Source: Hydrogenophaga sp. PBL-H3 (GTDB lineage Bacteria; Pseudomonadota; Gammaproteobacteria; Burkholderiales; Burkholderiaceae_C). Taken from it: a DNA stretch of 64,000 nt. Positions 7,180 through 44,399 of this stretch are shown here, one piece after another. The position numbers and the translations under genes are program-made. Where the stretch lies: positions 1,736,001 to 1,800,000 of the forward strand of contig NZ_CP044972.1 of the NCBI RefSeq assembly GCF_010104355.1, in the 5' to 3' direction. The notes beneath the pieces were generated by a model. The model was not told the DNA's origin and did not search any database. It worked only from the letters and a program-made list of their open reading frames with translations. Position 1 is the stretch's first letter. The number at the start of each line of letters is the position of its first letter.

Positions 7180-7722
7180 CTAGCGGCGGTAGACCTTGCG
7201 CAGCAGGGCGGTGAGGGTGCGCAGTTCGCTGGCGGTGAGCGAATGCGTGGCTTCCTGCTCCAGGGCGGTGGCCGTCTGCTGGGCCTGGGTGTGCAGGTGC
7301 TGCCCGGCCAGCGTGAGGTGCAGGCCCTGGGCGCGGCGATCAGTGGGGTGGGGCTGGCGCTCGATCAGGCCGCGCTTGTGCAGCGCCTTGACCATGCCCA
7401 CCAGGTTGGGCGGCAGGATGTCGAGCGCGGCGCAGATCTGGCGCGAGGTCACGCCGGGGTTGTGCGCCACCACGGTAAGCACCGAGAAGTCGACCGGGCG
7501 CAGGTCGTAGGGCGCCATGCGGCGCAGGAACAGCGCGATGATGGTCAGCGCTGCGCGCCGGGCGTTGTAGCCCAGCAGGGTCTCCAGGTATGAGGTGTCG
7601 ACCTCGGGTGCATCGCCCGGTGTGCCCGCGGGGTCGCCCTCGAGTTGAAGGCCCTCGCTTGCGGCGTTCTTGCGCGGCCCGCGGGGGCGGCGCATGGCGT
7701 TGGCAATGGAGGTCTCGGGCAT
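7180..7722 (-). CDS. MarR-family regulator, probable regulator of the hydroxycinnamate operon
   Basis: A 180-residue MarR protein with a disordered basic N-terminus (about 40 residues). A helical dimerisation segment (TSYLETLLGYNARRAALTIIALFLRRM) follows, then the winged HTH (VTSRQICAALDILPPNLVGMVKALHKRGLIERQPHPTDRRAQ), with the usual DRR wing. MarR proteins in ferulate and p-coumarate clusters (FerC, CouR, HcaR type) are repressors released by the hydroxycinnamoyl-CoA thioester. It is the last gene of the long operon, 2 bases after the acyl-CoA dehydrogenase stop, which would allow autoregulation. The AT-rich palindrome at 21490-21508 is the best candidate operator. Confidence 0.85.
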   Translation of the reverse strand: MPETSIANAMRRPRGPRKNAASEGLQLEGDPAGTPGDAPEVDTSYLETLLGYNARRAALTIIALFLRRMAPYDLRPVDFSVLTVVAHNPGVTSRQICAALDILPPNLVGMVKALHKRGLIERQPHPTDRRAQGLHLTLAGQHLHTQAQQTATALEQEATHSLTASELRTLTALLRKVYRR

Positions 7723-7724
7723 CG

Positions 7725-9524
7725 TCAGAGCATAGCCGGGTGCTGCCGCCCGATCGACAAGGTGGTGTCCATCATCGCCATGCGCATGTCGAACTCGGGC
7801 CAGATCCAGCGCCAGAAAGCCGCGTGCGCGGTGGCGTCAACATCGGGCGCCGTGGCCAGACGCTCCCACGCCCAGGCCATGAGCAGCAGCGCCAGGGCGC
7901 GCAAGAAATCGTCGGCCAGCCAGAACGGCTGTTCGGGGGCTGCGTTGGCCGTGCTGGTGTCGGGCACGACCTGCGCCCGCACGAACGCGCTGAAGGCTTG
8001 CAAGGCCTGCCGGGCGCGCGAGCCGGGTTCGGTGTCGGCCGCCAGTTCGGCCAGCAGGGTCTGCAGTGCCGCAGCGCCGTCTGGCAGGGTCTTGCGCACC
8101 AGCAGGTCGATCGCCTGAATCTCGTTCGTGCCTTCGTAGATCATCGCCACGCGTGCATCGCGCACGTGCTGCTCGATGCCCCATTCGCGCACATAGCCGT
8201 GGCCGCCGAAGACCTGCAGACAGGCGCTCGCACCCACAAAGGCCTGTTCGGTCCAGGCCGACTTGAGCACCGGGGTGACCAGGCTGCACCAGCGCGCCGC
8301 GGCTTCGCGACGCGCGGCGTCCGGGTGGTGTTTCTGGGTGTCGAGTTCAAGCGCCGTGCGGTAGGCGATCACGCGCCCGGCGTCGATCCAGGCGCGTTGT
8401 GTGCTCAGGATCCGCTGGATGGCGGGGTGCAGCGCAATCAGGTCCGCTTGGCCGGCCTTGCTTGTGCTGCCGGGTGCGCGCATCTGGCGGCGTTCCTGTG
8501 CATAGGCGTTCGCCTTCTGCCACGCGGCATCCAGCAGGCCGATGCCTTGCAGGCCCACCAGCAGGCGCGCCGCGTTCATCATGACGAACATGGCGTTGAG
8601 GCCCTTGCCGGGTTCGCCCACGATCGAAGCCGCTGCTTCGTCGAAGCGCATCACGCAGGTGGGGCTGGCGTGGATGCCCATCTTCTCCTCGATGCGTTCG
8701 CAGTGGACACGGGTGCGTACCCCCACGCTCCCCACTTCGTGTGGTTCGCTGCCCCCCAAGGGGGCTGGCCTTGCTTGGGGCGGCCCGGCGCGGCGGCCCT
8801 CGTTTCCGTCTTCGTCAAATTTGGGCACCAGGAACAGCGACAAGCCCTTGGGGCCCGGAGGCGCGTCGGGCAGGCGCGCGAGCACCAGGTGAACGATGTT
8901 GTCGCTGAGGTCGTGTTCACCACCGGAGATGAAGATCTTGGTGCCCGACAACGCGAAGCGCCCGTCGGCCAGCGGCACGGCTCTGGTTTGCACCAGGCCC
9001 AGATCGCTGCCGGCATGGGGCTCGGTCAGGCACATGGTGGCCAGCCATTCGCCGCTGGCCAGTTTGGCCAGGTAGCGCGCCTTGAGTTCTTCGCTGCCGT
9101 GGTGGCGCAGGCACTCGTAGGCTCCGTGCAGCAGGCCTGGTGCCATGGTCCAGCCGTGGTTGGCGGCGTTCAGCATCTCGTGCAGCACCGCTTCCACCAC
9201 GGTGGGCAGGCCCTGGCCGCCGTCTTCCACCGCGCAGGCCAGTGAGGGCCAGCCCGCTTGCCAGAAGGCCTGGTAGGAGTCGCGGAAGCCCGGCGGCATG
9301 GTGACCTTGCCGGCGTTGAACTGCGCGCCGATTTCGTCGCCGCTGCGGTTGAGCGGAGCCACCACCTCGCCGACGAACTTGCCCGCTTCGTCGATCACCT
9401 GGGTGAGCAAAGCGGTGTCGGCGTGCTCGGCCATGGCCGGCAGTTCGGCCAGGCGGTCTGAGGCGCGCAGCACGTCAAACAGAACGAAGGCGTGGTCGCT
9501 GGAGTGGGGTTGGTAGGCGTTCAT
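7725..9524 (-). CDS. Acyl-CoA dehydrogenase, DmdC-like with C-terminal extension
   Basis: A 599-residue FAD flavoenzyme of the large acyl-CoA dehydrogenase group with an extra C-terminal domain (3-methylmercaptopropionyl-CoA dehydrogenase-like). Visible signatures are MCLTEPHAGSDLG (FAD/substrate loop), SGTKIFISGGEHDLSDNIVH, KMGIHASPTCVMRFD and FGGHGYVREWGIEQHVRDARV with IYEGTNEIQA near the catalytic region. In this operon it may oxidise dihydrocinnamoyl-type CoA esters to cinnamoyl-CoAs before hydration; this is inference. The start at 9524 lies 4 bases after the tannase gene. A GC-rich repeat (8720-8799) is embedded in frame and adds about 27 residues between the KF and HCERIEEKMG segments. 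Confidence 0.9.
   Translation of the reverse strand: MNAYQPHSSDHAFVLFDVLRASDRLAELPAMAEHADTALLTQVIDEAGKFVGEVVAPLNRSGDEIGAQFNAGKVTMPPGFRDSYQAFWQAGWPSLACAVEDGGQGLPTVVEAVLHEMLNAANHGWTMAPGLLHGAYECLRHHGSEELKARYLAKLASGEWLATMCLTEPHAGSDLGLVQTRAVPLADGRFALSGTKIFISGGEHDLSDNIVHLVLARLPDAPPGPKGLSLFLVPKFDEDGNEGRRAGPPQARPAPLGGSEPHEVGSVGVRTRVHCERIEEKMGIHASPTCVMRFDEAAASIVGEPGKGLNAMFVMMNAARLLVGLQGIGLLDAAWQKANAYAQERRQMRAPGSTSKAGQADLIALHPAIQRILSTQRAWIDAGRVIAYRTALELDTQKHHPDAARREAAARWCSLVTPVLKSAWTEQAFVGASACLQVFGGHGYVREWGIEQHVRDARVAMIYEGTNEIQAIDLLVRKTLPDGAAALQTLLAELAADTEPGSRARQALQAFSAFVRAQVVPDTSTANAAPEQPFWLADDFLRALALLLMAWAWERLATAPDVDATAHAAFWRWIWPEFDMRMAMMDTTLSIGRQHPAML
8720..8799. repeat. GC-rich palindromic (REP-like) repeat inside a coding sequence
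   Basis: About 80 bp containing GCCCCC-CAA-GGGGGC (8751-8765) flanked by CCCCACGCTCCCCACTTCG and GCTTGGGGCGGCCCGGCGCG. Elements of this type normally lie between genes in Comamonadaceae. Here it is translated in the acyl-CoA dehydrogenase as a Pro/Gly/Arg-rich loop (GPPQARPAPLGGSEPHEVG). The boundaries are approximate. Confidence 0.7.
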
Positions 9525-9528: not shown

Positions 9529-11274
9529 TCAGCGGCAGGAGAAGCTGGACGCGGTTTCCACCGGGCCCGTGCCCGTGTACTGCGCCACCGTGGGGTAGGC
9601 GCACAGCGGGCGGCTGCGGGTGGCCGACCAATCGGCCGGCAGCTCGGGGTTGGCGCCACCGGCGTTGCCCGCGCCGCGCGCGCTGGCGGTCACCGCTTGG
9701 GGTGCCACACCTTGCTCGACCCACTTCACCAGCGGGCCGAGCAGGTCGAACTGGTCGGTGGCCGGGCCACCGCTGCAGTGGTTCATGCCGGGCACCGGGA
9801 AGTAGCGCACGAAGTCGGCGGCTTTCCCGCCCTGCGAGCGGTTCACGCGCTCGACCCACTGGCGCGTGTCCTCGGCCGAGAAGATCGCATCGCTCACGCC
9901 GTGGTACAGCACCAGCTTGGCGCCGCGCGCGCGCAGTGGCAGCAGGTTGTCGGGCTTCTCGTGGCCGGGCGGGCCCATGAGCGAGAGGCCCGATTCGCGG
10001 TAGGTGTCGCTGGTGGTCGAGAGGGCGGGCAGCAGCGCGTCGATGTTGGCGCTGGCAACGTTCACCGGTGCGGCCGGCGGCGCGGTGAAAACGGTACCGA
10101 CCGAGAGCGGGTCCAGCGCCACGGCGTTGACGAACTTCCAGGTGGCCCAGTTGTTGCCGGCGATGCCGGTGTCGTGCGGGAAGGCGCTGTAGATGGCCTG
10201 GCCGTTGGCAGTCTTGCCGCCGGCTTGCACCTGCGCCAGGGTGTCCTTCTGCGCCGGCGTGAGGCAGGTGCCGTCGCGTGCGCCGCTGCAGGCGGGCACG
10301 TCTCGCACCACGTCGAAGGCGGCCTGGCAAGCCTGCGTGGCCTGGACCAGACCGTCCCGCAGGCCGTCGAGCGCGTCGCAGCGGTTGAGGACGGCGCGCG
10401 CCACGCTCTGGCGCTCCGGCGCGGTGAGGGCGCTGGCCAGATCGGGAATGTTCGCGTTGGGGTTGAGAGGGTGCTTCACCGTGGCGCCTGGTGTGGCCAG
10501 TGGTGTCCAGCGCTGAGCGCCCCAGAGCTGCGCCAGCGCCGCATTGGGCAGGCGGTAGCCGGGCGCGCCGATCAGGTAGCCGTCGTACTGGTCGCCCAGG
10601 CGGCTCGCGGCCACCAGGGCGTGGCGCCCACCGTTGGAGCACCCGCCGATGTAGGAGCGGTCCGGGCCCTTGCCGTAGGCCGAGGCGATCAGCGCCTTGG
10701 CCATGGGCGTGAGCTTGGCCACGGCCTGGTACCCGTAGTCCAGCCGCGCCTGCGGCTCCAGGCCGAAGTAGGGCGTCTGCGCGCCGGTGTGGCCGGCGTC
10801 GGAGCTGATCACCGCAAAGCCCTGCACCAGCGCGCCGGTGAGCGGGCCGCCGCCGAGCGCGCCCTCGGCCGGGCGCACCGCGCCGTCCAGGCCGCCGTTG
10901 CCTTGGTGGTAGAAGCGGCCGTTCCAGGCCTGCGGCAGGCGCATCTCGAAGCCGATCGCGTAGTCGCGTCCGTCGCTGCCCTTGCGCTTGTGCATCTGGC
11001 CCTTGACCAGGCAGTGCGCCGCCACCGGCTGGCCCGCCAGCACGAGGCCACCCGCGGCCACCGGGGCGGCGGAGTCGATGGTGGTCTGGTCGAAGCGGAA
11101 CTCGCTGGCCAGCGTGTCGCACTGTCGCAGGCTGGCGCCCACGGCGGGCGTGAGTGTGGCCGGTGCGCCGGTGCCGGTGCCCGGGCTGGTGCCGCAGGCG
11201 GTCAGAAGCAGGCCAAGTCCGAGTGACAGGCCCAGTCGGGTGGTGCGGGGGTCGCGACGCTGTGCTTTCTTCAT
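9529..11274 (-). CDS. Tannase/feruloyl esterase family alpha/beta-hydrolase, lipoprotein
   Basis: Predicted to hydrolyse ester-linked phenolic acids (feruloyl or galloyl esters) outside the cytoplasm. The protein has 581 residues. A lipoprotein signal ends in LLTAC with C27 as the lipidated cysteine. The nucleophile is S213 in GCSNGG; C212 next to it and the NHCSGG motif near residue 500 reproduce the CS-D-HC disulfide arrangement typical of the tannase family. It lies inside the hydroxycinnamate operon, 49 bases after livF and 4 bases before the acyl-CoA dehydrogenase. This fits release of ferulate-like acids near the cell surface followed by uptake. The exact ester substrate is unknown. Confidence 0.88.
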   Translation of the reverse strand: MKKAQRRDPRTTRLGLSLGLGLLLTACGTSPGTGTGAPATLTPAVGASLRQCDTLASEFRFDQTTIDSAAPVAAGGLVLAGQPVAAHCLVKGQMHKRKGSDGRDYAIGFEMRLPQAWNGRFYHQGNGGLDGAVRPAEGALGGGPLTGALVQGFAVISSDAGHTGAQTPYFGLEPQARLDYGYQAVAKLTPMAKALIASAYGKGPDRSYIGGCSNGGRHALVAASRLGDQYDGYLIGAPGYRLPNAALAQLWGAQRWTPLATPGATVKHPLNPNANIPDLASALTAPERQSVARAVLNRCDALDGLRDGLVQATQACQAAFDVVRDVPACSGARDGTCLTPAQKDTLAQVQAGGKTANGQAIYSAFPHDTGIAGNNWATWKFVNAVALDPLSVGTVFTAPPAAPVNVASANIDALLPALSTTSDTYRESGLSLMGPPGHEKPDNLLPLRARGAKLVLYHGVSDAIFSAEDTRQWVERVNRSQGGKAADFVRYFPVPGMNHCSGGPATDQFDLLGPLVKWVEQGVAPQAVTASARGAGNAGGANPELPADWSATRSRPLCAYPTVAQYTGTGPVETASSFSCR

Positions 11275-11323: not shown

Positions 11324-12058
11324 TCAGGCGGCTTTTCGCGCGCTGCCCAGGTAGGTCTCGATCACGCGTGGGTCGCTGGCGAGTTCGCTGGCCGGGCCCT
11401 GGGCGCTGAGTTCGCCCATCTCCAGCACGTAGCCGTGGTCGGCCACCTGCAGCGCGGCGCGCGCGTTCTGCTCCACCAGCACGATGGTCACGCCGGTCTG
11501 GCGCAGGCGCTCGATGATGGCGAAGATCTCGCGCACGATCAGCGGCGCCAGACCCAGGCTGGGTTCGTCGAGCATGAGCAGGTCGGGGCTGGACATGAGC
11601 GCGCGGCCCACGGCCAACATCTGGCGTTCACCGCCCGAGAGCGTGCCGGCGAGCTGGGTGCGGCGCTCCTGCAGGCGCGGAAAGATGCTGTACACATCGT
11701 CGAGCGTGCTGCGCCATTTCGCATTGCCCAGGCGCATCTGGCGGAAACCGCCGAGCAGCAGGTTGTCTTCCACCGGCATGGTGCCGAAGAGTTCGCGCTT
11801 CTCGGGCACCAGTGCCATGCCGTTCATCACGCGCTCTTCGAGCGTGAGCGTGGTGATGTCCTGGCCGCGAAAGTTGATGACGCCCTGGCCAGGCAGGATG
11901 CCCATGAGCGTGTTGAGCAGCGTGGACTTGCCCGCGCCGTTGGGGCCGATGACGGTGATCACGCCGCCGGGCTGCGCCTCGATGTCGATGCCGTGCAGCA
12001 CCTCGGCGCGGCCGTAGCCGGCGCGCAGACCCTTGATCTGAAGAATGGGGTTGCTCAT
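11324..12058 (-). CDS. livF: Liv-type ABC transporter ATP-binding protein (LivF-like)
   Basis: A 244-residue ATPase of the branched-chain/aromatic-acid ABC importer family. Walker A is GPNGAGKS (about 40-47), the signature loop [15 protein letters not shown], and Walker [14 protein letters not shown]. The LivF subtype is shown by its short length and the [20 protein letters not shown] segment. It starts 1 base after the livM-livG fusion gene. In this operon the importer probably carries aromatic acids such as hydroxycinnamates rather than amino acids (inference from context). Confidence 0.93.
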
Positions 12059-12059: not shown

Positions 12060-13829
12060 TCAATGCTCCGTGCCGAGGTAGGCCGCGCGCACCTTCGGGT
12101 CTTGCTGCACCTGCTCGGGTGGTCCCTGCGTGAGCAGGGTGCCGAATTCCATCACCACCAGGTGGTCGCAGATCTGCATCACCAGGTCCATGTCGTGTTC
12201 CACCAGCAGGATGCTCATGCCTTCTCCCTTGAGCTGGCGCAGCACACCGCCCAGGGCCAGCTTCTCCTGGTGGCGAAGGCCGGCGGCGGGTTCGTCGAGC
12301 AGCAGCAGGGTGGGGTCGGCGCACAGGGCGCGCGCGATCTCCATCAGGCGCTGCGGACCCATGGCCAGGTTGCCGGCCTGCTCGTGCAGGTAGGCCCCCA
12401 TGCCGATGCGCTCCAGCTGGCGCTGCGCTTCGCGGAACAGCTGCTTTTCCTCGCTGCGGTTGGCGCGCAGCATGGCGGGCAGCACGCCCTTGCGGCCGCG
12501 CGTGTGCGCGCCCAGCGCCACGTTCTCCAGCACCGTCATGTCCGGGATCATCTTGACGTGCTGGAAGGTGCGCGCCATGCCCAGCCGGGCGATCTCGCGC
12601 GATGGCTGGCCCACCACGTTGCCGCCCTGAAATTGCACCGCGCCACTGGTGGCCGGCAGCACGCCGGTGATGAGGTTGAAGGTGGTGGACTTGCCCGCGC
12701 CGTTGGGCCCGATCAGGCCCACGATCTGGCCGGCGTGGATCTGGAAGCTGATGTCGTTCACGGCGACCAGACCGCCGAACTGCATGCGCGCCTTCTGCAC
12801 GTCGAGCACCAGCGCACCGGTGGCGGGTTTGGCGCGCTCGGGCAGGGCGGCGGCGTCCTGCCAGTCGACCTTGCGCGGACGCTGCAGCAGGTTGCGCCCC
12901 ACCAGCGACCACAGGCCGTCGGGCAGGTACTTGAGCACCACGACGAGTGCGATGCCGAACACGATCACCTCGTAGCTGCCACTGGTGCCGATGAGTTTGG
13001 GCAACAGCACCTGCAGCTGGTCTTCGAGCACGCGGATCAGGCCGGCGCCGACGATGGCGCCCCACACATGGCCCACGCCTCCGATCACCGCCATGAACAG
13101 GTACTCGATGCCCATCTTCAGCCCGAAGGCCGAGGGGTTGACCGTGCGCTGGAAGTGCGCGAGCAGCCAGCCCGCCACCGAGGCGAACAGCGCCGCGAGC
13201 ACAAAGATGGTGACCTTGTAGCGGAAGGTGCTGATGCCCATGGCCTCGGCCATCTGCGAGCCGCCCTTGAGCGAGCGGATGGCGCGACCGGGGCGCGAAT
13301 CCAGCAGGTGCAGCAACGCGGCGGCGAAGGCCAGCAGGATCACCCAGGTCAGCACGAAGAAGGCGCGGCCCTGGCCGATGTCGAAACCGGCGATGCTCAG
13401 GCTCTGGATGCCGAGCAAGCCGTCGTACTTGCCCAGCGCTTCGAGGTTGCCCATGAGGTAGTAGAGCGACAGGCCCCAGGCTATGGTTGCCAGCGGCAAG
13501 TAATGGCCCGACATGCGCAGCGTGATCAGGCCCACCAGCAGCGCGCTGGCGGCGGTCAGGCCCATGCCGATGAACAGCGTGATCCAGGGCGAGAGGCCGG
13601 TGTTGAGCGTGAGCCAGGCTGTGGTGTAGGCACCGATGCCCACAAACGCCGCCTGGCCGAACGAGGTGAGGCCACCCACGCCGGTGAGCAGCACCAGGCC
13701 CATCACCGTCATGCTGTACATGCCGATGTAGTTGAGCTGGGCGATCCAGAAATCGGGCAGGGGCAGCACGGCGACCAAGGGAATGGCCAGGGCCAGAATC
13801 AGCAGGCCGATGTTTTGCAGCTTCGGCAT
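12060..13829 (-). CDS. Fused Liv-type ABC permease and ATP-binding protein (LivM-LivG)
   Basis: One 589-residue polypeptide joins two subunits that are separate in the classical Liv system. Residues about 1-320 are a LivM permease, with multiple hydrophobic helices and the [21 protein letters not shown] motif. A charged linker ([17 protein letters not shown]) leads to a LivG ATPase (about 345-589) with Walker [10 protein letters not shown] and Walker [13 protein letters not shown], plus the LivG-specific C-terminal [17 protein letters not shown]. Such LivM-G fusions occur in Betaproteobacteria. It lies 1 base after livH and 1 base before livF. Confidence 0.93.
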
Positions 13830-13830: not shown

Positions 13831-14871
13831 TCAGTGGTCCTCGTCGGAGTGTTTGCTGCTCAGGGATCTGAACAGGAGGACGGGAAGAATCAGCGTGAAC
13901 ACGATCACTTCCTTGAAAGCGCTGGCCCAGAACGAGCCGAAGGCCTCGATCACGCCCACGAACAGGGCGGCGACCAGCGCGCCGGGGTAGCTGGCGAGAC
14001 CCGCGGCCACGGCGGCCACGAAGCCCTTGAGGCCGATCAGGAAACCCGAGTCGTAGAACACCGTGGTGGTCGGACCGATCAACAGGCCCGAGAGCGCACC
14101 GATGAAAGCCGCCATGGTGAAGGTGAGCTGGCCCGAAGCCTGCGACGAGATGCCCATGAGGCGCGCGCCGGTGCGGTTGACGGCGGTGGCGCGCAGCGCC
14201 TTGCCGCGCAGCGAGCGCTCGAAGTAGAGCCACAGCAGCACGATCAGCGCGATGGTGGCCAGCGCGGTGATGATGGCCTGGCCTGAGAGCATGACCGGGC
14301 CGATTTGAAAACGCGCGTCCCAGAACGCCGGGTTGCGGAAGCCCTCGGCGCCGAAGAACAGCAGACCCAGACCGGTCATGGCGAAGTGCACGCCGACCGA
14401 GACGATCAGCAGCACCAGCGGCGTGGCGCTCTCCAGCGACTGGTAGGCCACGCGGTAGACCAACGGGCCATACACGGTGACGATGGCCACGCTGAGCGCG
14501 GCTTGCACGGCCAGCGGAAACTGCTGCGGCGCAGCCCAGATGGCGATGGCCGAAACCACCAGCGGCGCGATCAGCATGCGCCCCGCAGCCTTGGCGGCCA
14601 CGAGCGCGTTGCGGTGGTGCTGCCAGCGGCCCGAGAGCTCCATGAGCGCAGCCACACCGGCCAGGATCAGCAGTAGCCACACGGTGCCGGGCACCTTGCC
14701 GGTTTGAAAAATGGCCAGGGTGAGCGCGCCATACGCGACGAACTCGCCCTGGGGGATGAAGATGACCCGCGTGACGGTGAACACCAGCACGGTGGCCAGG
14801 CCCAGGAGCGCGTACACCGCGCCGTTGGTCAAACCGTCCAGCAACAAAATGCTGGCAATGGAGAAATCCAT
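13831..14871 (-). CDS. livH: Liv-type ABC transporter permease (LivH-like)
   Basis: A 346-residue integral membrane permease. It starts [29 protein letters not shown], the characteristic LivH N-terminus, and carries about eight hydrophobic helices. The [19 protein letters not shown] stretch is the cytoplasmic EAA-like loop that contacts the ATPases. It is separated from the upstream binding-protein gene by 254 bases rich in hairpin repeats and is otherwise co-directional with it. Confidence 0.92.
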
Positions 14872-15125: not shown

Positions 15126-16259
15126 TTACTCCACTTTGAACTTGCCGTCGACGACCTTGAGCATCACGCCGGTTTCGTTGGTGAAGCCCCAATGGTCCGA
15201 CGGCGTCCAGTTCATCACGCCGTGCGCGAACACGGTGCGGCCCATGGTTTCCATGCTGTCGCGCAGCGCGGCGCGGAACTCGGGCGTGCCGGGCTTGCCC
15301 TTCTTCAGCGCCATCGGGATCACCTTCTCCAGCGTGATCTGCGCGTCGTAGGCGTGGCCGGCGAACTGGTTGCGCAGGCCGGCGCCGACCGCCTTCTCGT
15401 ACTTCTGCACGAAGTCGATCGCCACCGCCTTGGACGGGTGGCTGTCTGGCAACTGCTCTGCGATCACGGCCGGGCCGGAGACCACGAACGCGCCCTCGAC
15501 GGCCTTGCCGCCCACGCGCATCAGGTCTTGCGTGGCCGCGGCGTGGGTCTGGTAGATCTTGCCCTTGAAGCCGCGCTCGACCATGGCCATGTGCGGCATG
15601 GCCGCACCACTGCCCGAGGCCACGATCAGCACCGCGTCAGGGTTGGCCGAGGTGATCTTGAGGGCCTGTGGCGTCACGCTGGTGTCGGTGCGCGCGAAGC
15701 GCTCGGTGGCCACCACCTTGATGCCGGCCTTCTCCAGCAGCGGCGCGCTTTCTTTCAGCCACTGCTCGCCATAGGCGTCGGTGTAGCCCAGGAAGCCGAT
15801 GGTCTTGATGCCTTGTTTCTTCATGTGCTCGACCATGGCGTGGCCCATCACGGTGTTGGACTGCGGCAGGCGGAACACCCACTTGTCCTTGCCCGGTGGC
15901 AGGCCGACCGGCGAACCGGTGAGCTGCACCGTGCCGGCTTCGGTCGCGATGTCGCTCATGGCGGCGGCCACAGCCGTGATGCACGAGCCGATGATCATGT
16001 CGACCTTGTCTTCGGTCACGAAGCGGCGCGCGTTGGCAGCGCCCTTGCCCGGGTCGGTCGCGTCGTCCAGGATGATCAGGTTGACCTTCTCGCCACCGAT
16101 GGTCTGCGGGAACAGCTTGAACTGGTTCTGCATCGGGATGCCCAGGCCGGAGCCGGGCCCGGTGAGCGCCAGGCTCACGCCGATGTTGATGTCGGCCAGG
16201 GCAGCGGTGCTGCTCAGGGCTGTGATGGCCAGGGCAACGAGGGTCTTGACGGCTTTCAT
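15126..16259 (-). CDS. ABC transporter substrate-binding protein, Liv/aromatic-acid type
   Basis: A 377-residue periplasmic type-1 binding protein. The Sec signal peptide is MKAVKTLVALAITALSSTAALA, and the mature protein begins DINIGVSLALTGPGSGLG. Related binding proteins of this fold (for example CouP of Rhodopseudomonas) bind p-coumarate and ferulate. Its position between the beta-oxidation genes and the livH-livMG-livF genes makes hydroxycinnamates the likely ligand. That ligand assignment is inference. It starts 54 bases after the thioesterase gene. Confidence 0.9.
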   Translation of the reverse strand: MKAVKTLVALAITALSSTAALADINIGVSLALTGPGSGLGIPMQNQFKLFPQTIGGEKVNLIILDDATDPGKGAANARRFVTEDKVDMIIGSCITAVAAAMSDIATEAGTVQLTGSPVGLPPGKDKWVFRLPQSNTVMGHAMVEHMKKQGIKTIGFLGYTDAYGEQWLKESAPLLEKAGIKVVATERFARTDTSVTPQALKITSANPDAVLIVASGSGAAMPHMAMVERGFKGKIYQTHAAATQDLMRVGGKAVEGAFVVSGPAVIAEQLPDSHPSKAVAIDFVQKYEKAVGAGLRNQFAGHAYDAQITLEKVIPMALKKGKPGTPEFRAALRDSMETMGRTVFAHGVMNWTPSDHWGFTNETGVMLKVVDGKFKVE

Positions 16260-16313: not shown

Positions 16314-16733
16314 TCAAGTGCACAGTGCCTTGATGTCCTCGGGCACGGGAATGGCCTTGATGCGGTCGGGTGCCTCGGGCGGGTGGATCACGAAGGCGCG
16401 CGTCTCGCTGCCTTCGCACAACACGTCATCGCCGCGTTTGACCACATGCTTGTGCATGAAGACCTTCTCGCGCCATTCGGTCACGCTGGTGTGGATCTGC
16501 AGGCGTTCGCCGTAGGTGGCGGGGCGCATGAACTTGGTGTGGATTTCCAGCAGCGGCGTGCCGACGATGCCGCGTGTCTTGACCAGCTCGCGCCAGGGCG
16601 GCACACCGTTTTTCACGAAGAAGTTCAGCGAAGATGCGTCCATCCACTTCGAGAAGTTGGGGAAGAACACGATGCCGGCCGGGTCACAGTCGCCGAACAT
16701 CACCTCCACTTCGTACACGACAACTTTGCTCAT
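16314..16733 (-). CDS. Acyl-CoA thioesterase, 4-hydroxybenzoyl-CoA thioesterase family
   Basis: A 139-residue single hot-dog domain. The motif FGDCDPAGIVFFPNF (about residues 11-25) contains the catalytic Asp and the DPxGIV signature of 4-hydroxybenzoyl-CoA thioesterases. In this operon it would hydrolyse an aroyl-CoA such as vanilloyl-CoA or 4-hydroxybenzoyl-CoA to the free acid, handing vanillate to VanAB. The start at 16733 overlaps the stop of the SDR gene (ATGA), a sign of translational coupling. A long in-frame upstream extension to 16940 is rejected because it lies inside the SDR gene. Confidence 0.88.
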   Translation of the reverse strand: MSKVVVYEVEVMFGDCDPAGIVFFPNFSKWMDASSLNFFVKNGVPPWRELVKTRGIVGTPLLEIHTKFMRPATYGERLQIHTSVTEWREKVFMHKHVVKRGDDVLCEGSETRAFVIHPPEAPDRIKAIPVPEDIKALCT

Positions 16734-31964: not shown

Positions 31965-31979
31965 GTTGAAGGTGAAAAA

Positions 31980-36678: not shown

Positions 36679-37581
36679 TCAGCGGGCGTTGAGCGCGTCC
36701 AGCGTCTGGCGGATCAGGTCCAGCGTCTTCTGCTGTGTGAGCGTGGCCGGGCGCTGTGAGCTGGTGGCCAGGCTCAGCCGCGTCTTCAGTGGCGGGCTGA
36801 CGGAGCGGATGCGGTAGGCCGACGGCCGGATCGAACTGGCCACGGCGTTGCGCGAGAGCAGAGCGGCACCTGCCCCGTCGGCCACCAGGTCGAGGATGGC
36901 CGACACGCCGTCGATCTCCAGCGCCACCGTGGGCCGGCAGCCGATGTTGGCCATCTCGGTTTCCACCTGCATGCGGATCGCGTTGGGCCGGCTGGGGATC
37001 ACCAGCGGCATGCTGGCCACCTCGCGCAGGCTGATGGCGGTGGGTGGGTCTTCGCTCAGGCCGGGTGGGCGCGGCTCCACCAGCAGCAACTCTTCGTCGC
37101 GCAGCGGGTGGATGTCGATCTCGGCGGCGGGTTGTGCGTTGTAGAGCACGGCGATGTCCAGCCGCCCGGTGGTCAACCACTCCAGCATGGTGACCGACAG
37201 CGCTTCGCTGATGGACAGGCTGGCCTCGGGCAGTTGCGCGCGGAAAGCGCGCGTGAGCGGCACCATGAGCACCCGCGCGAGGCTGGGTGGCAGGCCGATG
37301 GCCACGCGCCCGGCGAGCGCGCCGCGCACGCGGCCCAGCTCTTCACGCGCGCGCTCCACCTGGTGCAGGATGCCTCGGCCATGGGCCAGCAGCAGCTTGC
37401 CCGCTTCGGTGGGGGTGGCACCCCGTCCGTTGCGCACCAGCAGGTTTTGCCGCAGTTCCACTTCGAGCTGGCGCACCTGGCGCGAGAGCGCGGGCTGCGC
37501 CACATTCAACGCCATCGAAGCCCGCGTGAAACTGCCCAGCTCGGCCACGCGGACAAAGTATTCGAGTTGCTTGAGGTCCAT
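36679..37581 (-). CDS. LysR-family regulator, probable activator of the protocatechuate 4,5-cleavage operon
   Basis: A 300-residue LysR protein. The N-terminal HTH (MDLKQLEYFVRVAELGSFTRASMALNVAQPALSRQVRQLE) is followed by a linker and a periplasmic-binding-protein-like effector domain from about residue 90. It is divergent from the lig operon across 134 bases, as PmdR is in Comamonas, and probably responds to protocatechuate or a ring-cleavage product (inference). The spacer contains the odd palindrome CTAGC-T-GCTAG (37642-37652) and an AT-rich patch around 37622-37640. Confidence 0.88.
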   Translation of the reverse strand: MDLKQLEYFVRVAELGSFTRASMALNVAQPALSRQVRQLEVELRQNLLVRNGRGATPTEAGKLLLAHGRGILHQVERAREELGRVRGALAGRVAIGLPPSLARVLMVPLTRAFRAQLPEASLSISEALSVTMLEWLTTGRLDIAVLYNAQPAAEIDIHPLRDEELLLVEPRPPGLSEDPPTAISLREVASMPLVIPSRPNAIRMQVETEMANIGCRPTVALEIDGVSAILDLVADGAGAALLSRNAVASSIRPSAYRIRSVSPPLKTRLSLATSSQRPATLTQQKTLDLIRQTLDALNAR

Positions 37582-37715: not shown

Positions 37716-38432
37716 ATGCCAAATACCTCTGCCACCCCCCCTGTCAACACCCGCCTCAATGGCATCTCGTCCATGGCGACGCGCCAGGTGCTGGCCGAAC
37801 TGGTGGCGGGCTTCGAGGCTGCCAGCGGCGTGTCGGTGGCGATCGAATCGGTGGGCGGTGTGGACGCCGCCCGGCGGGTGCAGGCCGGTGAAGCCTTCGA
37901 CGTCGTGATCCTCGCGATGGATGCCATCGACAAGCTGGTCGCCAGCGGTCACCTGCGGCCCGGCAGCCGGGTGGACCTGGTGCGCTCGGGCGTGGCGGTG
38001 GCCGTGCGCGCCGGTGCACCTGTGCCCGATCTGGGCTCCGAAGACGCGGTGCGCAGCGCCGTGCTGGCCGCGCGCAGCATCAGTTATTCCACCGGGCCCA
38101 GCGGTGTCGCGCTGGCGAAATTGTTCGAGCGCTGGGGCATCACCGAGCAAATCCAGGGCCGCATCGTTCAGGCGCCACCCGGCGTGCCGGTGGCCTCGTT
38201 GGTGGCCCGCGGCGAGGTGGAGCTGGGTTTCCAGCAGCTCAGCGAACTGCTCGGCGTGGCCGGCATCGCAATAGCTGGCCCCTTGCCTGCGGCCATCCAG
38301 ATCGTCACCACGTTTTCCGCTGGCATCCCGGTGCACACGACCCACGCCGAGGCCGTGAGCGCCCTGCTGGCGTACATGGCCGCGCCGCAGGCGACCGATG
38401 CCAAGCGACGACAGGGCATGGAGCCCGCGTGA
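37716..38432 (+). CDS. ModA-like binding-fold protein without signal peptide
   Basis: A 238-residue protein of the molybdate-binding/type-2 periplasmic binding superfamily (ATRQVLAELVAGFEAASGVSV, QAGEAFDVVILAMDAIDKLV, SISYSTGPSGVALAKLFERWG). The N-terminus MPNTSATPPVNTRLNGISSM is polar and shows no signal peptide, so it should stay in the cytoplasm. It is the first gene of the ring-cleavage operon, 38 codon-free bases before ligJ. Function unknown: it could sense or bind a pathway acid. Known pmd operons begin with other genes. Confidence 0.72.
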   Translation: MPNTSATPPVNTRLNGISSMATRQVLAELVAGFEAASGVSVAIESVGGVDAARRVQAGEAFDVVILAMDAIDKLVASGHLRPGSRVDLVRSGVAVAVRAGAPVPDLGSEDAVRSAVLAARSISYSTGPSGVALAKLFERWGITEQIQGRIVQAPPGVPVASLVARGEVELGFQQLSELLGVAGIAIAGPLPAAIQIVTTFSAGIPVHTTHAEAVSALLAYMAAPQATDAKRRQGMEPA

Positions 38433-38469: not shown

Positions 38470-39504
38470 ATGAGCCTCATCATCGATTGCCACGGCCACT
38501 ACACCACGGCACCCAAGGCGCTGGAGAACTGGCGCAACGCGCAGATCGCCGGCATCAAAGACCCGGCGGCCATGCCCAAAGTCGACGATCTGAAAATCAG
38601 CGACGACGAGTTGCGCGAGTCCATCGAGACCAACCAGCTCAAGCTCATGAAGGAGCGCGGCAGCGACATCACGCTGTTCAGCCCGCGTGCGAGCTTCATG
38701 GCGCACCACATCGGCGACTTCAACGTGTCGAGCACCTGGGCCGCCATCTGCAACGAACTTTGTTTTCGCGTGAGCGAGCTGTTCCCCGACCACTTCGTGC
38801 CGGTGGCCATGCTGCCTCAGTCACCCGGCGTTGACCCAGCCACCTGCATTCCCGAACTGGAGAAGTGCGTCAAGGAATACGGTGCGGTGGGTATCAACCT
38901 GAACCCCGATCCGTCGGGCGGCCACTGGACCAGCCCGCCGCTGACCGACCGGCACTGGTACCCCATCTACGAGAAGATGGTCGAGCACGACCTGCCGGCC
39001 ATGATCCACGTGAGCACCAGTTGCAACGCGTGTTTCCACACCACTGGCGCGCACTACCTCAACGCCGACACCACGGCCTTCATGCAGCTGATCCAGGGCG
39101 ATCTGTTCAGGGACTTCCCCACGCTGAAGTTTTTGATCCCCCACGGCGGCGGTGCGGTGCCTTACCACTGGGGCCGCTTCCGCGGCCTGGCGCAGGAGAT
39201 GAAGAAGCCGCTGCTGGACACGCACGTGATGAACAACGTGTTCTTCGACACCTGCGTCTACCACCAGCCCGGCATCGACCTGCTCAACACCGTGATCCCG
39301 GTGAAGAACGTGCTGTTCGCCAGCGAGATGATCGGCGCGGTGCGCGGCATCGACCCGACCACGGGCAACTATTACGACGACACCAAGCGCTACATCGAAG
39401 GCTCGAAGATCCTGAGTGCGGACGACAAGCACCAGATCTACGAAGGCAATGTGCGCCGGGTGTTCACTCGACTCGATTCGCGACTGAAGGCAAAGGGGAT
39501 CTGA
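38470..39504 (+). CDS. ligJ: 4-oxalomesaconate hydratase
   Basis: Hydrates 4-oxalomesaconate to 4-carboxy-4-hydroxy-2-oxoadipate in the protocatechuate 4,5-cleavage pathway (pmdE in Comamonas). A 344-residue amidohydrolase-superfamily protein, close to LigJ's length. The HGH motif is in [10 protein letters not shown] at the N-terminus, [13 protein letters not shown] and [23 protein letters not shown] follow, and [17 protein letters not shown] supplies the later metal/substrate histidines. GGAGACA precedes the start at 38470. ligK follows after 1 base. Confidence 0.93.
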
Positions 39505-39505: not shown

Positions 39506-40189
39506 ATGTACGAACTCGGCGTTGTTTACCGCAACATCAAACGCGCGGACCGCGCAGCCGCCGACGGCCTGGCCGCGCTCGGCTCGGCCACGGTGCACGA
39601 GGCAATGGGCCGCGTGGGCCTGCTCAAACCCTACATGCGCCCGATCTACCCGGGCTGCCAGGTGAGCGGCACGGCAGTCACCGTGCTGCTGCACCCGGGC
39701 GACAACTGGATGCTGCATGTGGCGGCAGAACAGATCCAGCCCGGCGACATCGTGGTGGCCGCCATCACAGCCGAATGCACCGATGGCTACTTTGGCGACC
39801 TGCTGGCCACCAGCTTCCAGGCGCGTGGCGCGCGCGCGCTCATCATCGACGCCGGTGTGCGCGACGTGAAAGAGCTGCAGAAGATGGGTTTCCCGGTGTG
39901 GAGCAAGGCCATCAGCAGCAAAGGTTGCATCAAGGCCACCATCGGCTCGGTGAACATCCCCGTGGTGTGTGCCGGCATGCTGGTGACGCCGGGCGACGTG
40001 GTCGTGGCCGACGACGATGGTGTGGTGTGTGTGCCGGCCGCGCGTGCCGTGACCACGCTCGAAGCTGCGCAGCACCGCGAGAGTTTTGAAGGCGAGAAGC
40101 GGGCCAAGCTGGCCAGCGGGGTGCTGGGGCTGGACATGTACAAGATGCGTGAGCCGCTCGAGAAGGCCGGTCTCAAGTACTTCGATTGA
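39506..40189 (+). CDS. ligK: 4-carboxy-4-hydroxy-2-oxoadipate aldolase
   Basis: Class-II aldolase of the RraA-like fold that splits 4-carboxy-4-hydroxy-2-oxoadipate into pyruvate and oxaloacetate, ending the pathway (pmdF in Comamonas). 227 residues. Visible features include [11 protein letters not shown], the phosphate-like loop [20 protein letters not shown], and the metal-site segment [14 protein letters not shown], with the conserved D/R pair. Tightly packed between ligJ and ligI. Confidence 0.93.
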
Positions 40190-40198: not shown

Positions 40199-41131
40199 AT
40201 GACAAATCCGACATCCGGAGACTTCACCAAAACCCCCGGCTGGCTCGACTGGTACACGGGCCCCAGCAAGCCGCGCTTCCAACTGCCCGCCGGCGCTGTG
40301 GACGCGCACTGCCACGTGTTCGGCCCCGGCGCCGAATTTCCCTATGCGCCGGAGCGCAAGTACACGCCGTGTGACGCGAGCAAAGCCCAACTGTTCGCGC
40401 TGCGCGACCACCTCGGCTTTGCGCGCAACGTGGTGGTGCAGGCCACCTGCCACGGCGCCGACAACCGCGCGCTGGTCGATGCGCTGGTGCACAGCGACGG
40501 CAAGGCGCGCGGTGTGGCCACCGTCAAGCGCAGCGTGAGCGACGACGAGCTGCAGGCCCTGCACAAAGCCGGCGTGCGCGGCGTGCGGTTCAACTTCGTC
40601 AAGCGCCTGGTGGACTTCACGCCCAAGGACGAGCTGATGGAGATCGCCGCCCGCATCCAGAAGCTGGGCTGGCACGTGGTGATCTATTTCGAGGCGGTGG
40701 ACTTGCCCGAGCTGTGGGACTTCTTCACCGCGCTGCCCACCACCGTGGTGGTGGACCACATGGGCCGTCCCGACGTGGGCAAGCCGGTGGACGGCCCCGA
40801 GTTCGAGCTGTTCCTGAAGTTCATGCGCCAGCACCCCAATGTGTGGAGCAAGGTGAGCTGCCCCGAGCGTTTGAGCGTGACCGGCCCCAAGGCCCTGAAC
40901 GGCGAACAGGCGGCTTACCAGGACGTGGTGCCGTTCGCGCGCAAGGTGATCGAGGAGTTCCCTGACCGCGTGCTCTGGGGCACCGACTGGCCGCACCCCA
41001 ACCTCAAGGACCACATGCCCGACGACGGTCTGCTGGTGGATTTCATTCCGCAAATCGCGCCCTCGGCCGAGGCGCAGAAAAAACTTCTCGTGGACAACCC
41101 CATGAAGTTGTATTGGCCAGAGGAGGTCTGA
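40199..41131 (+). CDS. ligI: 2-pyrone-4,6-dicarboxylate hydrolase
   Basis: Opens the lactone of 2-pyrone-4,6-dicarboxylate to give 4-oxalomesaconate (pmdD in Comamonas). A 310-residue amidohydrolase-family protein. Motifs are VDAHCHVFGPGAEFPY at the N-terminus, GVRGVRFNFVKR, VVDHMGRPDV, VWSKVSCPERL and the C-terminal LWGTDWPHPN. The LigI subgroup does not need a bound metal. The start at 40199 lies 9 bases after ligK and its stop is 1 base before ligA. Confidence 0.95.
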   Translation: MTNPTSGDFTKTPGWLDWYTGPSKPRFQLPAGAVDAHCHVFGPGAEFPYAPERKYTPCDASKAQLFALRDHLGFARNVVVQATCHGADNRALVDALVHSDGKARGVATVKRSVSDDELQALHKAGVRGVRFNFVKRLVDFTPKDELMEIAARIQKLGWHVVIYFEAVDLPELWDFFTALPTTVVVDHMGRPDVGKPVDGPEFELFLKFMRQHPNVWSKVSCPERLSVTGPKALNGEQAAYQDVVPFARKVIEEFPDRVLWGTDWPHPNLKDHMPDDGLLVDFIPQIAPSAEAQKKLLVDNPMKLYWPEEV

Positions 41132-41132: not shown

Positions 41133-42429
<1,297 letters not shown>

Positions 42430-42430
42430 C

Positions 42431-43393
42431 ATGACAAAAACCATCAAAGTCGCCCTCGCAGGCGCCGGTGCCTTCGGCATCAAGCACCTGGACGGCATCA
42501 AGAACATCGACGGCGTTGAAGTCATCTCGCTGATCAGCCGCGATCTCGACAAGACGAAGGAAGTGGCGGCCAAGTACGGCATCAAGCACGTCACCACCGA
42601 GCTGTCCGATTCGCTCGCGCTCAAGGAGCTCGACGCCGTCATCCTGTGCACGCCCACGCAGATGCACGCCGAGCAGACCCTGGCCTGCCTGAAGGCCGGC
42701 AAGCATGTGCAGGTGGAGATTCCGCTGGCCGACAGCCTGGCGGGTGCGCAGGCCGTGGTGCAAGAACAGAAGAAGACCGGGCTGGTTGCGATGTGCGGCC
42801 ACACCCGCCGCTTCAACCCCAGCCACCAGCACGTGCACAACGAGATCAAGGCCGGGCGGTTCAACATCCAGCAGATGGATGTGCAGACCTACTTTTTCCG
42901 CCGGACCAACACCAACGCGCTGGGCCAGGCACGCAGCTGGACCGACCACCTGCTGTGGCACCACGCCGCACACACGGTTGATCTGTTCGCCTACCAGTGC
43001 GGCAGTCCGATCGTGCAGGCCAACGCCATCCAGGGACCGATCCACTCCGCACTCGGTATTGCGATGGACATGAGCATCCAGCTCAAGGCCGCCAATGGCG
43101 CCATCTGCACGCTCAGCCTGAGCTTCAACAACGACGGCCCGCTGGGCACCTTTTTCCGATACATCGGCGACACCGCGACCTACCTCGCGCGCTACGACGA
43201 CCTGTTCACCGGCAAGGAAGAAAAGATCGATGTGTCGAAGGTGGCGGTGAGCATGAACGGCATCGAGCTGCAGGACCGCGAATTCTTCGCCGCCATCCGC
43301 GAAGGCCGCGAGCCCAACTCGAGCGTGGCCAGTGTTTTTGCTTGCTACGAAGTGCTGCACCAGTTGGAACAGCAGTTGAACGCGAACGGCTGA
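42431..43393 (+). CDS. ligC: 4-carboxy-2-hydroxymuconate-6-semialdehyde dehydrogenase
   Basis: Oxidises the ring-cleavage product (as its hemiacetal) to 2-pyrone-4,6-dicarboxylate with NADP (pmdC in Comamonas). A 320-residue Gfo/Idh/MocA-type enzyme. The Rossmann motif is VALAGAGAFGIKHLDGI, followed by CTPTQMHAEQTLACLKAGKHVQVEIPLAD with the conserved EIP and CGHTRRFNPSHQ. It is the last pathway gene of the operon; the aldo/keto reductase begins 4 bases later. Confidence 0.95.
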   Translation: MTKTIKVALAGAGAFGIKHLDGIKNIDGVEVISLISRDLDKTKEVAAKYGIKHVTTELSDSLALKELDAVILCTPTQMHAEQTLACLKAGKHVQVEIPLADSLAGAQAVVQEQKKTGLVAMCGHTRRFNPSHQHVHNEIKAGRFNIQQMDVQTYFFRRTNTNALGQARSWTDHLLWHHAAHTVDLFAYQCGSPIVQANAIQGPIHSALGIAMDMSIQLKAANGAICTLSLSFNNDGPLGTFFRYIGDTATYLARYDDLFTGKEEKIDVSKVAVSMNGIELQDREFFAAIREGREPNSSVASVFACYEVLHQLEQQLNANG

Positions 43394-43397
43394 AGCC

Positions 43398-44399
43398 ATG
43401 CAACAACGACAACTCGGCCCCTTCAAAGTCTCGGCCCTGGGCCTGGGCTGCATGAACATCTGCCATGCCTACGGTGCGCCCGTCACACCCGATGCAGCCG
43501 AGCGTCTGTTGCTGTCTGCGCTGGACCAGGGCGTTACGCATTTCGACACTGCAGCGCTCTACGGCTTTGGTGTGAGCGAGACGCTGGTGGGCAAGGCTCT
43601 TTCAAAGCGCCGAAGCGAGTTCACGCTGGCCAGCAAGTGCGGCATGCAGGGTGTGGACCTGGCGGGCGACGGCAAACTGGTGCGCGTGATCGATGGTCGA
43701 CCCGAGACGATCCGCGCCACCTGCGAGGCCGCACTCAAACGCCTGAAGACCGATGTGATCGACCTCTACTACCTGCACCGCTGGGACAAGCAAGTGCCGA
43801 TCGAGGAGAGCGTGGGCGCGCTGAGCGACCTTGTGCGTGCGGGCAAGATCCAGACCATCGGCTTGAGCGAGGTGTCGGCCTCCACGCTGCGCCGCGCCCA
43901 CGCGGTGCACCCGATCACCGCATTGCAGACCGAGTATTCGCTGTGGACGCGCAACCCCGAGATCGCGGTGTTGCAAGCCTGCCGCGAACTCGGCGTGGCC
44001 TTCGTGGCGTTCAGCCCGGTGGCGCGTGGTTTCCTGTGCGGCGAGATCGATGTGGGCACGCTGGACGCCAAGGACATCCGCCGCACCATGCCGCGTTTTG
44101 CGCCCGACAACTACGCTGCCAACCTCAAGCTGCTGGCCCCGTTCCAGGCCATCGCGCGCGAGGTGGGTTGCACGCCCGCCCAGCTGGCCATCGCATGGCT
44201 GCTGCACCTGGGCAACGACATCCTGCCCATTCCCGGCACGGCGCGCGAAGACCACCTGCGCGAGAACATCGGCGCGGCGGATGTGAAGCTGGATGTGGCC
44301 ACCATGGCCAAACTGGACGCGTTGATCAACCAGCAGACCGTCAAAGGCAACCGCTACAACGAGCAGGCCAACCGCGAAGTCGACACCGAAGCCTGGTGA
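43398..44399 (+). CDS. Aldo/keto reductase
   Basis: A 333-residue AKR. It has the N-terminal LGLGCMNICHAYG, the catalytic tetrad region HFDTAALYGFGVSE (Asp, Tyr), LASKCGM (Lys), and LYYLHRWDKQVPIEESVGAL (His). The C-terminal NADP-binding segment is LPIPGTAREDHLRENIGA. Its place at the end of the lig operon suggests that it acts on an aromatic aldehyde or a ring-cleavage intermediate, but the substrate is not evident. Confidence 0.9.
   Translation: MQQRQLGPFKVSALGLGCMNICHAYGAPVTPDAAERLLLSALDQGVTHFDTAALYGFGVSETLVGKALSKRRSEFTLASKCGMQGVDLAGDGKLVRVIDGRPETIRATCEAALKRLKTDVIDLYYLHRWDKQVPIEESVGALSDLVRAGKIQTIGLSEVSASTLRRAHAVHPITALQTEYSLWTRNPEIAVLQACRELGVAFVAFSPVARGFLCGEIDVGTLDAKDIRRTMPRFAPDNYAANLKLLAPFQAIAREVGCTPAQLAIAWLLHLGNDILPIPGTAREDHLRENIGAADVKLDVATMAKLDALINQQTVKGNRYNEQANREVDTEAW

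Follow-up and report, generated by a model that had tools for sequence, protein, structure and literature searches.

The window analysed here is the whole stretch of 64,000 nucleotides at positions 1,736,001-1,800,000 of the Hydrogenophaga sp. PBL-H3 genome (4.8 Mb; sample code G000). To judge from its genes, the DNA probably serves hydroxycinnamate catabolism in a Hydrogenophaga-like bacterium, and it includes a gene for a leaderless substrate-binding-like protein (37716-38432, plus strand; sbp for short), a candidate 4-oxalomesaconate isomerase located before ligJ. A minus-strand string runs, in the order of transcription, from a hydratase gene (21.4 kb) through the feruloyl-CoA synthase-type gene fcs and the genes of a thiolase, a short-chain dehydrogenase/reductase (SDR), a 4HBT thioesterase, LivK, LivH, a permease-ATPase fusion, LivF, a tannase-family lipoprotein and an acyl-CoA dehydrogenase to a MarR gene (7.2 kb). 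An amidohydrolase gene and a second acyl-CoA synthetase gene form a divergent pair, downstream of which lie the genes of a tripartite ATP-independent periplasmic (TRAP) binding protein and a MetE-like protein, vanA, a GntR gene, vanB, a TRAP transporter, further genes, a LysR gene, sbp, ligJ, ligK, ligI, ligA, ligB, ligC and an aldo-keto reductase gene. A preliminary description of this DNA had read it as a near-complete lignin-monomer funnel with the genes for each stage close together. Family matches and gene order placed each named gene at or near where it had been put, although several of the open reading frame starts listed were too long, and the divergent amidohydrolase, a marker of the published route, had been overlooked together with the acyl-CoA dehydrogenase and the MarR regulator. 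The comparisons cover a sample of 150 genomes of the host's family (codes G) and other records and loci (codes L); gene content, the absence of Ech and PrpF matches, and the patterns of linkage and exclusivity are direct observations in this material.

The lig operon would accomplish protocatechuate 4,5-cleavage. Located on the plus strand, it comprises ligJ (hydratase, 38470-39504; PF04909 184 bits, with homologues beside ligK and gallate dioxygenase genes), ligK (aldolase, 39506-40189; TIGR02798 417 bits), ligI (2-pyrone-4,6-dicarboxylate (PDC) hydrolase, 40199-41131; NF042924 215 bits against a cut-off of 500), ligA (41133-41573; TIGR02792 230 bits), ligB (41575-42429; PRK13366 594 bits), ligC (4-carboxy-2-hydroxymuconate-6-semialdehyde (CHMS) dehydrogenase, 42431-43393; PF19858 311 bits) and, at its end, the aldo-keto reductase gene (43398-44399; PF00248 235 bits). 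LigA, LigB and LigK exceed their NCBIfam cut-offs, while LigJ, LigI and LigC are assigned by Pfam family and operon order only. A LysR gene precedes many lig operons, and the one found here by library match (36679-37581, minus strand) presumably regulates this operon, judging from its place. The stages listed in the preliminary description are encoded, but its 'near-complete' passes over a missing step: LigU, the isomerase of the PrpF family (PF04303), has no match in the whole genome, sbp included, whereas the search was positive for E. coli and B. subtilis among 14 control genomes. In the available text of one paper LigU and GalD are listed as 4-oxalomesaconate (OMA) tautomerases, and LigJ and GalB as hydratases of 2-keto-4-carboxy-3-hexenedioate (KCH) (PMC12314914).

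The protein encoded directly before ligJ matches PF13531 (SBP_bac_11) with 159 bits. Its relation to ModA was apparent from a 31-row profile that matched ModA chains (best E 7e-13), the NCBIfam modA model giving 31 bits against a cut-off of 62.5. In many homologues the protein begins at the first strand motif or only a few residues ahead of it (SSMATRQ; MKAISSMATRR in pcaT, for instance), so that there is no room for a leader; a check of leader hydrophobicity on sbp was crude, its ranges overlapping those of leader-bearing controls. No ModB or ModC genes stand beside sbp within the window. The residues invariant in 47 rows include S19, A21, T22, G47, G48, V49, S91, S125 to G130, Q173, Q174 and E177. 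An AlphaFold model computed from two rows reached a pLDDT (predicted local distance difference test) of 37, and nothing was concluded from it. Leaderless enzymes on the binding-protein fold are known in MqnA and MqnD.

The distribution of sbp mirrors that of prpF. Among 89 genomes with LigJ, sbp was present in 78, prpF stood beside ligJ in 8, both occurred in none and neither in 3 (Fisher 2e-9). This count left out LigJ matches below 69% and sbp matches below 46% identity, by which G016 (a 41% sbp match 0.7 kb from LigJ) entered as neither; two of the sbp copies counted are partial (G051, G109), and the class with prpF beside ligJ was picked by eye from gene positions. This Fisher value, like those given below for amidohydrolase and thiolase, counts genomes as they stand and ignores kinship. 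In the 78 sbp genomes the gene is located within 3 kb of ligJ in 59, farther off on the same contig in 6 and on another contig in 13, some of these perhaps reflecting assembly breaks. Counted against ligB, sbp (at least 48% identity) occurred in 75 of 83 genomes with the gene and in 4 of 67 without it (Fisher 4e-28). Six of the eight exceptions with ligB have an operon that includes prpF, and the other two are G017 and G107; at this threshold G020 (46%) counts as lacking sbp. PrpF genes away from ligJ and ligB were not scored as LigU, and 27 of the 75 genomes with ligB and sbp have some PrpF elsewhere. Two predictions were set beforehand. That genomes with sbp and no ligB would carry LigJ was right in three of four cases (G062, G068 and G078, with sbp at most 1.2 kb from LigJ), G110 giving no LigJ match; that ligB genomes with neither gene would lack LigJ was right for one of two (G017), G107 having a LigJ fragment at a contig edge, which puts the adjoining gene out of view.

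At the level of single loci, 54 family stretches with ligJ contained sbp in 33, prpF in 6, both in none and neither in 15. An obligatory place of sbp in the operon was discarded, since all 15 genomes of the last class do possess sbp; in G088 it adjoins ligJ just past the edge of the stretch, and in G051 the copy is partial. In a quick LigJ-LigK tree of 64 rows, where family genomes were labelled by genome-level sbp presence and plasmid rows and L173 by neighbourhood alone, the seven prpF rows need six changes, at least three of them forced by starred branches. Hence the exchange of sbp and prpF seems to have occurred several times. The same exclusivity was found on plasmids, where the records listed were 60 out of 112 for LigJ, 60 out of 111 for sbp and 60 out of 331 for prpF, with numerous near-copies among them: within 10 kb of the 60 listed LigJ genes sbp was seen in 31 records, prpF in 17, both in none, and neither, or a partly unseen neighbourhood, in 12. 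Among the listed records the prpF group includes Paraburkholderia caribensis, Cupriavidus and sphingomonads, and the sbp group Acidovorax, Caballeronia, Paraburkholderia, Methylobacterium, Arthrobacter and Streptomyces. Five plasmids with neither gene were inspected; those of Phyllobacterium, Rhizobium WYJ-E13 and Sinorhizobium (Rhizobiales) hold a different binding-protein-like gene before the LigJ-like gene, that of Rhizobium johnstonii has no such gene, and the Microbacterium locus reaches the plasmid end. The Rhizobiales gene (L283:5108-5968, L284:5084-5953) is leaderless, gives no significant BLAST match to sbp, and lies directly before the LigJ-like gene and near an RraA-family gene.

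The gallate pathway narrows the choice of step. Gallate cleavage gives 4-oxalomesaconate directly, and an isomerase, a hydratase and an aldolase then suffice. In annotated records from two Caballeronia and one Paraburkholderia the string consists of gallate dioxygenase, a major facilitator superfamily gene (Caballeronia only), ligJ, ligK and sbp, and two further unannotated records match the gallate dioxygenase-ligJ-ligK-sbp string. Because gallate yields 4-oxalomesaconate directly, the only step in these strings that lacks an enzyme matches the only gene that lacks a step. A role of sbp in the CHMS or PDC steps was dropped, since no ligA, ligC or ligI was found in them. On a Sphaerotilus plasmid sbp and ligJ are paired, and the 14.7 kb retrieved from it contain no further lig match.

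On balance, these data lead us to favour, with some reserve, sbp as a new enzyme, a leaderless protein of a ModA-like family that would isomerise 4-oxalomesaconate to the LigJ substrate and would replace the unrelated LigU/GalD in most sampled family genomes and in some Actinobacteria and Alphaproteobacteria, in protocatechuate and gallate pathways alike. The distribution suggests that sbp does for the cell what prpF does; it does not tell the chemistry. The isomerase role is a prediction and the family is one of binding proteins, which gives weight to a different function: sbp may sense or bind a lig intermediate in the cytosol, the isomerisation being spontaneous or due to another enzyme. 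We hold this to be a serious possibility, though not the expected outcome. Against it stand the occurrence of sbp in 78 of 89 LigJ genomes, its absence from all eight with prpF next to ligJ, its retention in six genomes though far from ligJ on the same contig, and its recurrent exchange with prpF on the LigJ-LigK tree. Among the titles and abstract beginnings listed by the literature searches, none gives this protein a function in the pathway.

Upstream of the lig genes, the minus-strand string starts with an enoyl-CoA hydratase of non-lyase type (20640-21428; PRK08150 421 bits, cut-off 232; PRK09120 89 bits, cut-off 276), followed by fcs (18769-20634; PRK12582 691 bits), a beta-ketothiolase (17511-18758; PF00108/PF02803, TIGR01930 359 bits, above cut-off), the SDR dehydrogenase (16730-17494; PF00106, 54% identical to the SDR of the Rhizobium sp. 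Q54 cluster) and a 4HBT-type acyl-CoA thioesterase (16314-16733; PF13279 50 bits, with no NCBIfam match at 1e-20). Fcs shares 47% identity with the Rhizobium sp. Q54 protein annotated as feruloyl-CoA synthase, and up to 86% with family homologues. Divergent from the string, the amidohydrolase (21577-22440, plus strand; PF04909) is apparently a beta-ketoacyl-CoA hydrolase of the CouO/Atu1421 type, an assignment made via an annotated Q54 protein. Its full-length identity is 58% to that protein, a 4-hydroxyphenyl-beta-ketoacyl-CoA hydrolase by annotation, whose gene neighbours encode a feruloyl-CoA synthase, a hydratase, an SDR, an acyl-CoA dehydrogenase and a MarR regulator. Residues H12, H14, H155, H197 and D249, which we take to be metal ligands, are invariant in 18 rows. 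The closest named records include Hydrogenophaga bins (98-99%) and a Hylemonella bin (98%). A Pseudomonas putida plasmid protein, 72% identical, is encoded downstream of biotin carboxylase and haloacid dehalogenase (HAD)-phosphatase-like genes, a neighbourhood that resembles the acetovanillone (hpe) cluster; HpeF of that cluster is called a CouO homologue in the available text of PMC9618137. The second acyl-CoA synthetase gene (22437-24272, plus strand; PRK07529 607 bits, cut-off 632) has a four-base overlap with the amidohydrolase gene. An AMP-binding gene is also found 3' of the amidohydrolase gene in Rhodococcus opacus (L192), and in Streptomyces (L273) a 32% relative occupies that place.

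The amidohydrolase bears on how the side chain is cut. Scored at E 1e-60, it was present in 58 of the 150 family genomes, 57 of which also have fcs; in 45 of the 58 no more than 6 kb separate it from fcs, the usual distance being 0.8-1.1 kb, with the hydratase in between. In the 92 genomes of the fcs set (6 of them with a best fcs match below 50% identity), 51 carry the amidohydrolase without an operon-type thiolase, 23 the thiolase without the amidohydrolase, 6 both (the window included) and 12 neither (Fisher 7e-8). The avoidance held at fcs identity cut-offs of 50, 55, 60 and 65% (Fisher below 1e-5) and at 70% (0.001). Inspection of 40 loci gene by gene showed the amidohydrolase in 26 and the thiolase in 13 (3 with both), neither being present in 4; four of the 13 loci with a thiolase have it in divergent orientation beyond the hydratase, the usual place of the amidohydrolase. 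In an Fcs tree of 54 rows the amidohydrolase and the thiolase change 7 and 8 times, in a direction that agrees with the avoidance. A thioesterase strictly tracking the thiolase was rejected (9 of 13 thiolase-bearing loci against 8 of 27 others). We read the amidohydrolase and the thiolase as two interchangeable ways to cut the side chain, by hydrolysis to the free acid or by thiolysis followed by a thioesterase. The thiolase-thioesterase cleavage of the preliminary description is encoded but is not the sole cut encoded, and since a hydrolase of the CouO/Atu1421 type is predicted, vanilloyl-CoA need not be an intermediate. With both cuts apparently encoded, the paired cleavage genes make the window's funnel an unusual member; one guess is that both were retained for different ring substituents.

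The vanillate genes bear on the substrate. On the plus strand lie vanA (Rieske O-demethylase oxygenase, 27420-28508; VanA_C 163 bits) and a vanB-like reductase gene (29684-30670; PF00970, PF00175, PF00111), with a GntR/FCD regulator gene (28913-29674; PF07729, PF00392) between them. The spacer between vanA and the GntR gene (28508-28913) has a repeated stretch in translation, suggesting a short direct repeat. Ferulate could be a minor substrate, the main one being another aryl-propenoate or aryl-propionate such as cinnamate, p-coumarate, caffeate or their dihydro forms: Fcs-type enzymes are often broad, and the acyl-CoA dehydrogenase in the string (7725-9524, minus strand; PF00441/PF02770/PF02771) suggests saturated substrates. 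We consider this unlikely, though far from negligible, because the nearby vanAB and lig genes fit methoxylated acids and no more than 25 kb separate vanA from fcs in G000, G047, G134 and G113. G047 and G134 resemble the window in having both fcs and ligB at most 25 kb from a window-type vanA.

That these modules serve one funnel, as had been proposed, is supported by a recurrent arrangement. Both fcs and ligB occur in 69 of the 150 genomes, on the same contig in 24, and at most 60 kb apart in 17 of these 24. On contigs above 1 Mb holding both genes the distance was at most 60 kb in 7 of 14, against 0.70 expected at random places, and in 6 of 13 with the window left out (simulated P 5e-5); the closeness of fcs and lig is more than chance. 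Two named Hydrogenophaga records (L096, L175) combine fcs, amidohydrolase and van genes, and L096 keeps the window's gene order from MarR to vanB except in the importer/tannase region; neither a Liv importer nor a tannase was found in its 21 kb, where a weak Bug-type match (32%) takes their place. In L173, a bin titled Gammaproteobacteria, prpF, acyl-CoA dehydrogenase, fcs, amidohydrolase, TRAP and ligJKIABC genes lie within 21 kb; identities of 80-88% in several genes suggest that it may belong to Burkholderiales under an older naming. On a Streptomyces plasmid (L273) the amidohydrolase gene adjoins lig genes and sbp. Since the fcs-lig-van linkage recurs across genomes, the funnel is a recurrent, loosely linked arrangement. 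Chance neighbourhood of modules serving separate inputs might be argued from intervening genes without a clear part (MetE-like, AEC permease, DUF1932 reductase) and from the 7 of 24 same-contig genomes with fcs and ligB more than 60 kb apart; it is improbable in view of the excess on large contigs and of the L173 and L273 loci.

The route from ferulate to vanillate was addressed through the absence of Ech, the hydratase-lyase. The genome has 27 crotonase matches, and all of them fall short of the 276 bits required for PRK09120: the highest score is 128 and that of the operon gene 89, while 1 of 14 control genomes rose above the cut-off. Without an Ech above the cut-off, the step from which vanillin would arise is removed. 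None of the 20 Pfam aldehyde dehydrogenase (ALDH) matches of the genome lies inside the window, in agreement with the earlier remark that no vanillin dehydrogenase is visible; 17 of the 20 were scanned under strict E-value limits and no match shown was named vanillin dehydrogenase, though the library may hold no such model. A vanillin dehydrogenase elsewhere would have no Ech-made substrate from feruloyl-CoA because no Ech was found. The Ech/vanillin route, with the crotonase as hydratase-lyase and a distant vanillin dehydrogenase completing the path, could draw on those 20 ALDH matches (the one at C1:2021367 comes closest to benzaldehyde dehydrogenase MdlD, with 310 of the 550 bits required), but it is very improbable, since no crotonase qualifies and the SDR, thiolase, thioesterase and beta-ketoacyl-CoA hydrolase would be useless. 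CoA-dependent beta-oxidation, already preferred in the preliminary description, is thus supported for ferulate to vanillate, and genes for an Fcs-type ligase, a non-lyase hydratase and an amidohydrolase-type hydrolase, as expected of the CoA-dependent beta-oxidative hydroxycinnamate pathway, were all found.

The remaining genes of the string would concern uptake and ester cleavage. The whole Liv-type importer (16259-11324, minus strand, four genes from LivK to LivF) consists of a LivK-like substrate-binding protein with a leader-like N-terminus (15126-16259), a LivH-like permease (13831-14871), a permease-ATPase fusion (12060-13829) and a LivF-like ATPase (11324-12058), the LivH-like and LivF-like genes being library matches. 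In the fusion, a single reading frame that appears to join a Liv-type permease and an ATPase, the LivG model matches 341-587 and the LivM part is suggested by its place. The tannase/feruloyl-esterase family lipoprotein (9529-11274, minus strand; PF07519 402 bits) has a lipobox-like LTAC. Its nearest solved structure is MHETase (E 3.5e-95). However, the alignment is poor over the lid, and the position that follows the serine of GCSxGG carries a different residue; an identification as MHETase was dropped. A MarR-family regulator gene (7180-7722, minus strand; PF12802) ends the string. Between grpE and the cluster lies a gene (5847-6698) resembling those of 2,4-didehydro-3-deoxy-L-rhamnonate hydrolases (400 bits, cut-off 500); dnaJ, dnaK and grpE (1870-5746) stand just past the low-coordinate end. 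Around the van genes there are a TRAP substrate-binding protein gene (25054-26094, plus strand; PF03480), a second TRAP transporter (DctP, DctQ, DctM; 30824-33769, plus strand, library matches) and, divergent from vanA, the MetE-like gene (26150-27280, minus strand; PRK06520 432 bits), whose product might handle one-carbon units. MetE-like genes near vanA-like genes are also seen in L056, L096, L136 and L175.

Taken together, and with all activities, substrates and any joint regulation of the region predicted from sequence, the following scheme is proposed as the likely explanation. The surface esterase may release ferulate-type acids, which the Liv-type importer would take in. Fcs would form the CoA ester, into which the acyl-CoA dehydrogenase could feed dihydro forms, and the plain hydratase and the SDR would convert it to the beta-ketoacyl-CoA. 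This would be cut by the CouO/Atu1421-type amidohydrolase to vanillate and acetyl-CoA, or by the thiolase and then the thioesterase. VanAB would give protocatechuate, and LigAB, LigC, LigI, LigJ and LigK would lead to pyruvate and oxaloacetate, the isomerisation between LigI and LigJ falling not to LigU but probably to sbp. Several points weigh against this reading. The window synthetase stays below the PRK12582 cut-off (691 against 777 bits), and the substrates of esterase and importer are putative and may differ. The tannase occurs in 11 of the 40 loci, although contig ends truncate some of these, and window-type vanA (at least 76% identity) in 17 of the 150 genomes, marking both as loosely attached parts. 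G114, the only genome of the same genus in the sample, has the thiolase and not the amidohydrolase, and 12 of the 92 fcs genomes show neither cleaving gene at the thresholds used. Only three independent pairs on the Fcs tree stand on supported branches, which leaves the sign test powerless and not significant (median p 0.5). G147 and, less clearly, G016 and G107 have LigJ but lack both sbp and an adjacent prpF.

If the assignment of sbp is true, a lignin-monomer step in many bacteria would be performed by an enzyme that figures as a substrate-binding protein in the annotations seen; the pathway models on which lignin biorefining draws would be completed, and there would be a testable case of two unrelated protein families repeatedly exchanged at one metabolic step. 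The alternation of amidohydrolase and thiolase, in turn, would predict which genomes release vanillate directly and which via aroyl-CoA, a matter of interest in pathway engineering.

Compared with known systems, the funnel is real and mostly of known kind, its route being already published, as far as the available texts go, for Agrobacterium fabrum and Rhodococcus jostii; the likely new element is the replacement of LigU by sbp. In Pseudomonas putida KT2440 the aat thiolase and an acyl-CoA dehydrogenase adjoin fcs in the ferulate operon as well, with Ech and Vdh carrying the flux; the thiolase and acyl-CoA dehydrogenase with fcs are common to both, whereas the window genome lacks an Ech above the cut-off. 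The available text on A. fabrum describes beta-oxidative conversion of ferulate to vanillate by Atu1416, 1417, 1415 and 1421 under the MarR repressor HcaR, encoded in region SpG8-1b (PMC7797058). Common to both are fcs, hydratase, dehydrogenase, hydrolase and a MarR regulator; the window adds thiolase, thioesterase, Liv importer and esterase, and has VanAB instead of a folate-dependent demethylase and lig instead of pca ring cleavage. Rhizobium sp. Q54 carries the same gene set, its fcs, hydratase, SDR and hydrolase being 47-58% identical to their counterparts in the window. The R. jostii RHA1 cou genes share ligation, beta-oxidation and a MarR repressor, and CouO is the amidohydrolase of the last deacetylation step there; in the available descriptions they appear without a thiolase and with the beta-ketoadipate pathway downstream. 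CoA-dependent beta-oxidation is also among the routes listed in the accessible part of a 2026 review (PMC13406360), and the available text on coumarate in Comamonas serinivorans calls the beta-oxidation enzymes 'still not clear' (PMC6307125). With the lig genes of Sphingobium SYK-6 and the pmd genes of Comamonas the window has LigA, LigB, LigC, LigI, LigJ and LigK in common, its genome carrying sbp instead of LigU/PrpF. A counterpart of sbp in a described pathway is pcaT of Pseudarthrobacter phenanthrenivorans Sphe3. A figure legend calls this gene ABC-type molybdate transport, and the available text assigns it no function (PMC8431788). It is the last gene of a pca 4,5-cleavage string, and its product is 46% identical to sbp over 224 residues and equal at 26 of 27 conserved positions checked.

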